This document shows positions 20,572 through 47,219 of a DNA stretch of 64,000 nucleotides, one piece after another. The notes beneath the pieces were generated by a model. It ran no database searches and was not told the DNA's origin. It worked only from the letters and a program-made list of their open reading frames with translations. Each line of letters begins with the position of its first letter. Positions within the stretch are counted from its first letter, which is position 1. The stretch covers positions 1,736,001-1,800,000 of the forward strand of contig NZ_CP027295.1 of NCBI RefSeq assembly GCF_005490785.1, written 5' to 3'. The DNA is from Brachybacterium sp. SGAir0954 (lineage in GTDB: Bacteria; Actinomycetota; Actinomycetes; Actinomycetales; Dermabacteraceae). The position numbers were made by a program, and so were the translations under genes.

Positions 20572-20634
20572 CGGTGCTCCTCGTCCTCGCGGCGCGGGCG
20601 TCCCCCTGCGCGATGCACATCACCCAGGACCCCC

Positions 20635-20662
20635 TGGACGCGGCGCTCTGCCCTGCTAGGAT
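20635..20662 (+). promoter_or_regulatory. Predicted promoter of infC-rpmI-rplT
   Basis: A -35-like TGGACG (20635-20640) and a -10-like TAGGAT (20657-20662) are separated by 16 nt. Transcription from about 20669 would make a 5' leader of some 240 nt containing several hairpins, including the terminator-like stem just before infC. Confidence 0.6.
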
Positions 20663-20668
20663 AGACGA

Positions 20669-20911
20669 CCGGAACATGTCTTCGGTCTGTCCGTCCCGTT
20701 CGGGATGGAGGGGCCGGGCAGTCCTCAAGTGGAGTCCCTCCCACCTCGTGGCCACCGTCCCGAGCGCAATGCGCCGGGCGACCGTCACCGGGTCAGTACC
20801 AGACCGGCCCTCACGGGTCGGCCGGCGTTCACGCGCCATGGTGTCGGGGCCTCCGCAGGAGCGGGGGCCCTTTTCTCATGTTCCGTGTCGACACCGAGGT
20901 GAGGAGCCACC
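20669..20911 (+). promoter_or_regulatory. Structured infC leader (putative attenuation leader)
   Basis: About 243 nt without a supported gene between the predicted transcript start and infC. It holds small hairpins (for example around TCCCGTTCGGGA at 20695-20706) and ends in a terminator-type stem. Leaders of infC-rpmI-rplT operons in other bacteria bind L20 or attenuate transcription; the same role is inferred here without a recognised consensus. Confidence 0.6.
20847..20874 (+). terminator. Rho-independent terminator/attenuator before infC
   Basis: GGGCCTCCGC (20847-20856) pairs with GCGGGGGCCC (20861-20870), 10 bp with one G-U pair and an AGGA loop, directly followed by TTTT. It lies 38 nt upstream of the infC start, inside its own leader. 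Position and T-run indicate regulated premature termination. Confidence 0.8.
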
Positions 20912-21541
20912 ATCAGCGAACAGCGCATCAACGGTCAGATCAAGGTCCCCAAGGTCCTCCTGGTCGGCCCCAACGGCGAGCAGGTCGGGATCGTCCGCGT
21001 CGAGGACGCCCTGCGACTCGCCCAGGAAGCCGATCTGGATCTGGTGGAGGTCGCCCAGGGCGCCAATCCGCCTGTTGCGCGGCTCATGGATTACGGCAAG
21101 TTCAAGTACGAAGCCAACATGAAGGCCCGCGAGTCGCGGAAGAACCAGGCCAACACCGTCCAGAAGGAAATCCGGATGGGCCTGAAGATCGACAAGCACG
21201 ACTACGAGACCAAGCGTCGCAACGTCGAGAAGTTCCTCAACGGTGGCGACAAGGTCAAGGTCATGATCCGTTTCCGCGGTCGTGAGCAGTCCCGACCGGA
21301 GATGGGCATCAAGCTGCTCGGTCGCATGGCGGAGGACGTCGCCGAGCTCGGTTTCGTCGAGTCGCACCCGCGACAGGACGGCCGCACGATGGTGATGGTC
21401 CTCGGACCCCACAAGAAGAAGGCCCAGGCGATGGCCGAGGCGCGCAAGCGTCGCACCGACGCCGAGAAGGCCGAGAGCAACTCGTCGAAGCAGGCCGAGG
21501 CGCCTGCCGAGGACGTCGCGCCCACCGGCGACGAGTCCTGA
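20912..21541 (+). CDS. infC: Translation initiation factor IF-3 with a non-canonical AUC start codon
   Basis: A 209-residue factor that binds the 30S subunit and checks start-codon choice. The conserved N-terminus [19 protein letters not shown] begins directly after ATC at 20912. An in-frame TGA lies at 20900-20902, with only GGA GCC ACC between, so no ATG, GTG or TTG is available; the next in-frame GTG (21044) would delete 44 conserved residues. The ribosome site GAGGAG is well placed. IF-3 discriminates against such starts, so the AUC start should give autoregulation as with AUU in E. coli. Core motifs [10 protein letters not shown] and [15 protein letters not shown] are intact; the C-terminal 25 residues are a polar tail. 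Confidence 0.96.
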
Positions 21542-21566: not shown

Positions 21567-21761
21567 ATGCCGAAGAACAAGACCCACTCGGGCACCAAGA
21601 AGCGCATCCGCGTCACCGGCTCCGGCAAGCTCATGCGGGAGAAGGCGAACGCTCGCCACCTCCTCGAGCACAAGAGCTCGACCCGCAAGCGCCGTCTCGG
21701 GAACGACACCGATGTGGCCAAGGCGGACGTCAAGCGCATGAAGAAGCTGCTCGGCCGCTGA
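21567..21761 (+). CDS. rpmI: 50S ribosomal protein L35
   Basis: A 64-residue basic protein of the large subunit with the family signature [20 protein letters not shown] and [19 protein letters not shown]. Full length. AAGGAG lies upstream. It is in the usual infC-rpmI-rplT order, 25 nt after infC. Confidence 0.98.
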
Positions 21762-21823: not shown

Positions 21824-22204
21824 GTGGCACGCGTGAAGCGGGCGGTCAACGCCCATAAGAAGCGTCGGGAAATCCTCGAGCAGGCCAGCGGCTACCGCGG
21901 TCAGCGCTCGCGCCTGTACCGCAAGGCGAAGGAGCAGGTCCTGCACTCGCAGACCTACAACTTCCGCGACCGCAAGAAGAACAAGGGCAACTTCCGCCAG
22001 CTCTGGATCCAGCGCATCAACGCTGCGGCCCGTGCGAACGGCATGACCTACAACCGCTTCATCCAGGGCCTCGGGCTCGCGGGTGTCGAGGTCGACCGCC
22101 GCATGCTCGCCGAGCTCGCCGTGAACGACGCGCCGGCCTTCGCCGCGCTCGTCGAGGTCGCCAAGGGCGCGCTGCCCGAGGACGTCAACGCCCCCGCGGC
22201 CTGA
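21824..22204 (+). CDS. rplT: 50S ribosomal protein L20
   Basis: A 126-residue large-subunit protein with [20 protein letters not shown] and the central [20 protein letters not shown] motif, followed by [23 protein letters not shown] start, preceded by GAAGGAGAA. L20 is an assembly factor for the 50S subunit and in several bacteria represses its own operon by binding the leader mRNA. Confidence 0.98.
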
Positions 22205-42041: not shown

Positions 42042-46985
<4,944 letters not shown>

Positions 46986-47006
46986 TCAAAGTTTTTGTTT
47001 GCTGGT

Positions 47007-47040
47007 GTTCGCGTCCACTGTGTGGTTCTGGAGAAGCAAC
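47007..47040 (+). other. 3' arm of the pre-23S processing stem
   Basis: Complementary to 43857-43890 as described there. It lies 21 nt past the estimated 23S end and before 5S, where the RNase III stem is expected. Confidence 0.85.
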
Positions 47041-47100
47041 TCCTGCCACTGCGTCCCCTGGTCGGGGGTGTGGTTGGTCAGGGCTGGTTGGTCTCGCCGT

Positions 47101-47219
47101 GTTACGGCGGTCATAGCATCGAGGAAACGCCCGGTTCCATTCCGAACCCGGAAGCTAAGCTCGATTGCGCCGATGGTACTGCACTCGGGAGGGTGTGGGA
47201 GAGTAGGTCGCCGCCGGAC
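47101..47219 (+). rRNA. rrf: 5S ribosomal RNA
   Basis: About 119 nt. It has GTTACGGCGGTCATAGC at the 5' end, AAACGCCCGGTTCCATTCCG in the first internal loop, AACCCGGAAGCTAAGC, and GCCGATGGTACTGCACTCGG; the 3' end GGTCGCCGCCGGAC pairs with the 5' end. Last gene of the rrn operon. Confidence 0.97.

Follow-up and report, generated by a model that had tools for sequence, protein, structure and literature searches.

Which codon starts infC in Brachybacterium sp. SGAir0954, and what controls the synthesis of its product, IF3? The question is raised by a reading frame in which the first canonical initiation codon (ATG, GTG or TTG) appears well inside the protein. We analysed a stretch of 64,000 nucleotides (the window) from this genome, which consists of one contig of 3.41 Mb, and compared its infC region with those of related bacteria.

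The initiation codon of infC in the window

The frame that leads into infC reads TGA (20900-20902) GGA GCC ACC ATC (20912-20914) AGC GAA CAG CGC ATC AAC GGT CAG ATC AAG; the features of the region are collected in Table 1. A preliminary description of this DNA had reported an in-frame stop at 20900-20902, which our reading of the frame bore out, and had named the ATC at 20912 as the only possible start. The second claim stood in part: no ATG, GTG or TTG occurs before residue 45, but there are further in-frame ATC codons at 20927 and 20936. Since both lie far from the Shine-Dalgarno sequence, the ATC at 20912 is the only well-placed candidate and not strictly the only codon. The first canonical codon in the infC frame is the GTG at 21044 (ORF 21044-21541, 165 amino acids), in agreement with the earlier expectation that gene callers restricted to canonical codons would truncate the gene to this position. 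The product of the longer frame matched the Pfam domain IF3_N with 104.3 bits, above the cut-off (window 20927-21133), and this was the sole match in the genome; 39 of the 69 residues matching IF3_N would be lost with a start at GTG 21044. The two genes that follow infC in Table 1 are those which we take to be rpmI, from the motif MPKNKTHSG, and rplT, from the motif MARVKR.

Table 1. Features of the infC region, in window coordinates
Feature	Position	Strand	Basis or remarks
Possible promoter CTGGAC-N17-TAGGAT, transcription start expected near 20669	20634..20662	+	sequence reading, inference
Conserved infC leader element (hairpins H1 and H2)	20715..20801	+	model R2, 29.3 bits, E 3.4e-4
H1: GGAG (20731-34) with CUCC (20738-41), flanks AAGU and CACC	20731..20741	+	
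H2: ACCU...GGGU stem with inner stem	20743..20793	+	
Terminator-like hairpin in leader	20846..20871	+	5' arm can alternatively pair with the 5' arm of H1
Shine-Dalgarno region AGGUGAGGAG	20897..20906	+	3' end of the window 16S rRNA is GGATCACCTCCTTTCT
In-frame TGA upstream of infC	20900..20902	+	frame reading
infC initiation codon ATC	20912..20914	+	frame and alignment of relatives
infC (IF3), 209 codons plus stop	20912..21541	+	ORF list, Pfam match
rpmI (L35), ATG start	21567..21761	+	ORF list
rplT (L20), GTG start	21824..22204	+	ORF list

Within the genus, infC was matched 37 times in 38 genomes, and 32 loci were used for the comparison. All columns of the ATC had zero entropy in these loci. 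Over codons 2-15 of infC the entropy was 0.01, 0.03 and 0.36 bits at codon positions 1, 2 and 3, respectively, whereas in the region from -60 to -24 it was about 1.5 bits at each of the three positions. Because variation over codons 2-15 is almost confined to third positions and shows no such pattern upstream, the conservation of coding begins at the ATC. Both the anatomy of the locus and the conservation of this codon are direct observations.

Two other ways of making this protein were weighed against a start at AUC. Ribosomes could initiate at an upstream ATG or GTG in another frame and then shift into that of infC, and the ATG at 20878 indeed opens an ORF of 135 amino acids that overlaps infC; this ATG is, however, missing from many leaders of the genus, and the region from -60 to 0 lacks any codon-position pattern, which leaves a frameshifted start very improbable. 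The GTG at 21044, being the first canonical codon in the frame, could instead be the true start, with the first 44 codons untranslated. Yet codons 2-44 are conserved at the protein level within the genus and account for more than half of the IF3_N match, and we find a start at this GTG scarcely credible. Judged by the frame and the alignment of relatives, AUC at 20912 was confirmed as the predicted start of infC in this bacterium. The annotation is corrected in consequence: gene callers that accept only canonical codons drop the first 44 residues of this IF3.

Start codons of infC across Actinomycetes and beyond

We assembled 328 loci with the 5' region of infC, 275 of which were counted as members of the class Actinomycetes and 53 as members of other classes of the phylum; membership was assigned by kinship and, for 80 loci, by similarity. 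One locus (L001) proved to be the same gene as another (L002) and was dropped, leaving 274 class loci, 269 of them distinct over 300 bases. Matches were obtained in 115 of 119 genomes searched for the order, 191 of 197 for the class and 195 of 198 for the phylum. The loci taken at these levels are a subset that includes hand-picked ones for spread over genera, not every match. Escherichia coli (L338) served as the comparison locus.

At the aligned position, the 269 distinct class loci have ATC (252), ATT (14), ATA (1), GTC (1) or GCC (1), and none has ATG, GTG or TTG. A Shine-Dalgarno motif precedes all 269 assigned starts, mostly by 4-7 nt, but the motif had been used in assigning them and so gives no independent support. 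Between the upstream stop and the ATC, an in-frame canonical codon is absent in 28 of the 31 distinct genus loci and in 106 of the 269 distinct class loci; the remaining loci carry one, and their start is not fixed by the frame alone. Such a codon lies within 12 codons upstream of the start in 50 of the 269 loci, and in six of them (L048, L088, L091, L136, L298 and L309) it is accompanied by a Shine-Dalgarno-like motif. On the downstream side, the first canonical codon falls at residues 7-19 in 173 of the 269 loci. With early downstream canonical codons this common, a lack of such codons can establish the start by itself only for genes such as that of the window, whose first one comes at residue 45.

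The neighbouring genes of the same loci behave differently. Among the 162 class loci long enough to include them, rpmI starts with ATG in 108 and with GTG in 6 (not found in 48), and rplT with GTG in 107 and ATG in 26, besides one CAC that is a pattern artefact (not found in 28). As rpmI and rplT are canonical in loci where infC never is, the avoidance is special to infC. The use of ATC rather than ATT can be put down largely to G+C content, since internal isoleucine codons are mostly ATC as well (770 of 927). On a quick tree (78 residues; 319 loci, 274 from the class and 45 others) the infC codon changed at least 24 times, and none of the 274 class rows has a canonical codon. The zero count is valid for the class only, because other-class loci were labelled, by eye, only when they showed a non-canonical candidate: 45 were, the start not being forced in 12 of them, and the other 8 of the 53, several with in-frame canonical codons, were not. 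The retention, throughout the sampled class, of an infC start of the kind that IF3 discriminates against argues for selection. The AUC start is the common actinomycete arrangement, and the window is a further case of a documented trait.

Individual loci depart from this arrangement in ways worth recording. L136, from the same order as the window, keeps the ATC and has an in-frame ATG two codons upstream with a Shine-Dalgarno-like motif; its start may have turned canonical. In L309 (Lentzea sp.) the aligned site is GCC and an in-frame ATG stands ten codons upstream, directly after a TGA; here the start may have moved. In L208 (family f93, same class) infC apparently starts with GTC (AAGGAGCACAAAGTCAGC).

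A more consistent departure was found in a family of another class of the same phylum (f29). Seventeen of its genomes were searched, one of which gave no match and one a fragment only. In the 15 genomes with an N-terminus (L072, L074, L076, L077, L078, L080, L082, L083, L209 from the genome of L330, L329 and L331-L335), the sequence up to and including the start codon of infC is TGC GGG GTC in 12 and TGC GGG GTA in 3 (L080, L331 and L333), GTC or GTA being the initiation codon. These starts sit behind a long AGGAGGTGA-like Shine-Dalgarno sequence, with an in-frame stop shortly upstream, and in all 15 genomes no canonical codon occurs from that stop to the sixth residue; in L074 that residue is encoded by TTG, at a distance of 27 nt from the Shine-Dalgarno sequence. 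GTC was also seen in L211 (family f68) and in L214 (family f64), the anchor codon of L214 being GTG. The GUC and GUA families would be natural cases of still poorer starts on the very gene that polices such codons.

A structured leader RNA upstream of infC

The region upstream of infC is itself conserved. Folding of 20680-20940 gave a z-score of -3.66, and the 32 aligned leaders of the genus share an invariant block, AAGUGGAG...UCCCACCU, which in the window lies 185 nt upstream of the ATC. A loose pattern of this block was found in 140 of the 274 class loci, and 65 of these 140 were used to build a covariance model, R1. The model scored the leader element of the window with 41.1 bits, the same sequence (L002) being among its 65 training rows. 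Applied to 100 class loci without the pattern, R1 gave 74 matches at E<=1, 73 of them in the leader on the infC strand; the one in L150 falls within infC, in antisense orientation. A two-hairpin structure was drawn from the 74 rows, including the wrong one of L150, and a second model, R2, was made from them.

The consensus of the 74 rows has H1 as GGAG/CUCC and H2 as ACCYG/YRGGU with an inner stem. Pairing cells amounted to 82.7%, against 78.4% for shuffled columns, with none of the 500 shuffles reaching the observed value, and at most 58.1% when the structure was slid. These figures should be read knowing that the structure comes from those very rows and that kinship is not corrected for in the shuffles. 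Of the 14 pairs, 8 change on both sides. The pairing GGAG/CUCC of H1 holds in 98.6% of cells. Another form of H1, GUGG/CCAC with a bulged C, was rejected as the general one, its second pair being broken in 69 of the 72 rows with letters.

R2 matched 99 of 100 class loci in a first set (80 at E<=0.01) and 79 of 80 in a second (70 at E<=0.01), and recovered 23 of the 26 loci missed by R1, six loci being also in the 100-locus set. Some of the named loci come from genomes that were already represented, and the sets are to that extent dependent on one another. Taken together, the searches placed a match in the leader of 269 of the 274 class loci at E<=1 per search; two further weak R2 matches, in L319 and L290, lie outside the leader. 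At this threshold no match in the leader was obtained for L147, L150, L184, L196 and L320, four of which gave a weak leader-placed candidate (10.1-15.0 bits) when filters were turned off, and L147 none. In the window, the leader element is the only R2 match up to E 10 in the 64 kb. Both the conservation of this leader and its pairing are observed directly. Thirty infA loci contained nothing credible, the best score being 13.3 bits. In the 53 loci from other classes R1 had one match (L081, E 0.98). R2 gave six weak ones, all leader-placed (L227, L226, L230, L244, L225 and L248; best L227, E 0.006), and these suggest that the element could have an older origin.

A consensus promoter scan of the window found no promoter, and a TAGGATA-like box, as in the possible promoter of Table 1, recurs in many leaders of the genus. 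A strict terminator scan was positive in 1 of 31 leaders from the genus, against 0.6 expected from shuffles, and in 53 of 238 from the rest of the class, against 10.8 expected. An uninterrupted stem of at least 8 pairs, with no U-run demanded, was present in 32 of 32 (11.0 expected) and 169 of 222 (77.5 expected), respectively. The U-run of the genus terminator is weak.

Both arms of H1 have alternative partners. Its 3' arm, CUCCCACCU (20738-20746), is complementary to the Shine-Dalgarno sequence at 20897-20906, and over 31 genus loci this pairing had a mean of -12.7 kcal/mol against -6.4 in shuffled sequences, with 1.1% of shuffles as good. Its 5' arm pairs with the downstream leader at a mean of -16.1 against -12.4 kcal/mol in the same 31 loci (4.8% of shuffles as good), and five of six genus examples have the terminator-like hairpin's 5' arm as the partner. 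In the rest of the class, shuffles were as good in 28% of cases for the 5' arm (219 loci) and 27% for the 3' arm (220 loci). As a class-wide feature the alternative pairings were accordingly set aside, being strong in the genus and modest elsewhere, and the switch may therefore differ between lineages.

The relation of the element to catalogued RNAs was examined with Rfam. The window leader had no match at the gathering threshold; up to E 10 it gave six matches, all at chance level and to unrelated families. Scr1601 (RF02830) gave none at gathering in the window and none up to E 10, and the L20 leader family gave none at gathering and none up to E 10 in 20640-20930. In Streptomyces-type loci, RF02830 covers the leader element and runs to a U-run before infC, ending 89 nt before the gene in L266. 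Across 15 chosen loci, Scr1601 scored above threshold in 8 and below it in 3, and was without a match at E<=0.1 in 4 (L067, L069, L321 and L002).

Two features elsewhere in the window may be noted here. A complete rRNA operon (16S, 23S, 5S) lies at 42042-47219. Its 23S rRNA contains CUAAGUGG at position about 1101 (45019-45026), which resembles CAAGUGG of the leader and stands in a region that we take to be near the L20 site; R2 does not match the window 23S rRNA, and we treat the likeness as no more than a lead.

Proposed feedback by IF3 and attenuation, and comparison with known systems

IF3 makes initiation complexes unstable unless the codon is AUG, GUG or UUG, so translation of infC would be expected to fall as IF3 rises. 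In this organism, infC would be translated from AUC at 20912 behind its Shine-Dalgarno sequence, and an increase in IF3 would lower that translation, closing a negative feedback loop through the start codon. The leader would add a second level, with H1 and the terminator on one side and the read-through pairings on the other. H1 and H2 would be stabilised by one of the operon's own products, with L20 the likeliest by the example of Bacillus subtilis, and we infer that the leader is most likely a cis-acting attenuator that senses this product. That an AUC start with negative feedback by IF3, held by selection, is combined with such an attenuator upstream is what we consider probable, and with good confidence.

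The AUC might also be merely a weak start that keeps IF3 constantly low without any feedback, since a non-canonical codon lowers initiation at any level of IF3. Staphylococcus aureus reporters with other non-canonical starts indeed reached about 10% of AUG in poor medium (PMC13009471). Against this stand the control of E. coli infC by IF3 through AUU and the repression by IF3 of the GTC start of Streptomyces sigR (both in PMC5472188), and we regard a weak start alone as unlikely. The feedback reading of the infC start fits the ATT of E. coli, the statement made on Streptomyces infC and the class-wide absence of canonical codons at this site. As to the leader, it might be mainly a separate small RNA without control of infC, the way Rfam files Scr1601, which was found in Streptomyces coelicolor as a small RNA with confirmed expression (PMC8388888). 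In Streptomyces ambofaciens, Scr1601 fell among the UTRs (PMC8388888). The matches in the class lie upstream of infC on the same strand, apart from that in L150 and the extra weak ones in L319 and L290; the infA loci gave nothing credible; and Scr1601 stops ahead of infC, at a U-run, which is how a leader transcript cut short would end. The infC 5' UTR of Mycobacterium tuberculosis, moreover, is 326 nt long and more abundant than the coding sequence, with a UTR/CDS ratio that is 2.6 in exponential phase and 4.9 in the stationary phase (PMC3207917). The same paper aligned it with the infA UTR and cited L20 control in B. subtilis as an analogy. An infC leader that ends prematurely would account for the Scr1601 and M. 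tuberculosis observations together, and we hold a separate small RNA to be unlikely.

A wider form of the cis-acting leader can be proposed more tentatively. An infC leader of this kind could be cis-regulatory in nearly all Actinomycetes, with Scr1601 as its Streptomyces branch and a switch between H1 with the terminator and the pairing of the two H1 arms with the 5' arm of the terminator and with the Shine-Dalgarno sequence, set by L20 or by IF3, on top of the AUC feedback, and family f29, a sister lineage, could have gone further, to GUC and GUA; it may be so, and we lean slightly against the proposal as a whole. If true, the leader would provide operon-level control of IF3, L35 and L20 in Actinomycetes, and a catalogued small RNA, Scr1601, would become an mRNA leader. 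In the available portions of the open-licence literature we recognised no account of a class-wide Actinomycetes infC leader or of infC with a GTC or GTA start. Further work is better spent on the leader RNA and the GTC/GTA family than on the start codon, which is ordinary for the class.

Several known systems resemble the one in the window. E. coli MG1655 infC begins with ATT and shares with it a non-canonical AUH start and the downstream rpmI, whereas the codon here is AUC, the gene is preceded by a structured leader and the feedback would be the same by analogy. Streptomyces infC was reported to start with ATC, so that IF3 autoregulates its own translation, and to be misannotated in most Streptomyces species (PMC5472188); the Streptomyces loci of our set have the identical codon at the aligned place, and only the genus differs. 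Non-canonical infC starts are also documented in S. aureus (AUA; PMC13009471), Xanthomonas (ATT; PMC5559785) and B. subtilis (ATT; PMC6097659). The reading of the AUC as a feedback device is thus not new, and it is incomplete, as the conserved structured leader probably also controls the operon. Streptomyces sigR, to the knowledge of its authors the first documented gene with a GTC start, likewise has a non-canonical start behind a long Shine-Dalgarno sequence and is resembled by the GTC infC of family f29, but it encodes a sigma factor (PMC5472188). RF02830 Scr1601 overlaps the leader element in Streptomyces, while it is filed as a small RNA and has no match in the window. In B. subtilis, infC-rpmI-rplT is under an L20-controlled attenuator (PMC10931766), and a structured leader with a terminator before infC of the same operon is common to both systems. 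Like the L20 leaders of Firmicutes, that of the window precedes infC-rpmI-rplT and has a terminator, if with the weak U-run of its genus; it differs in having no Rfam L20-leader match, and L20 as the ligand is here a proposal made by analogy with B. subtilis.
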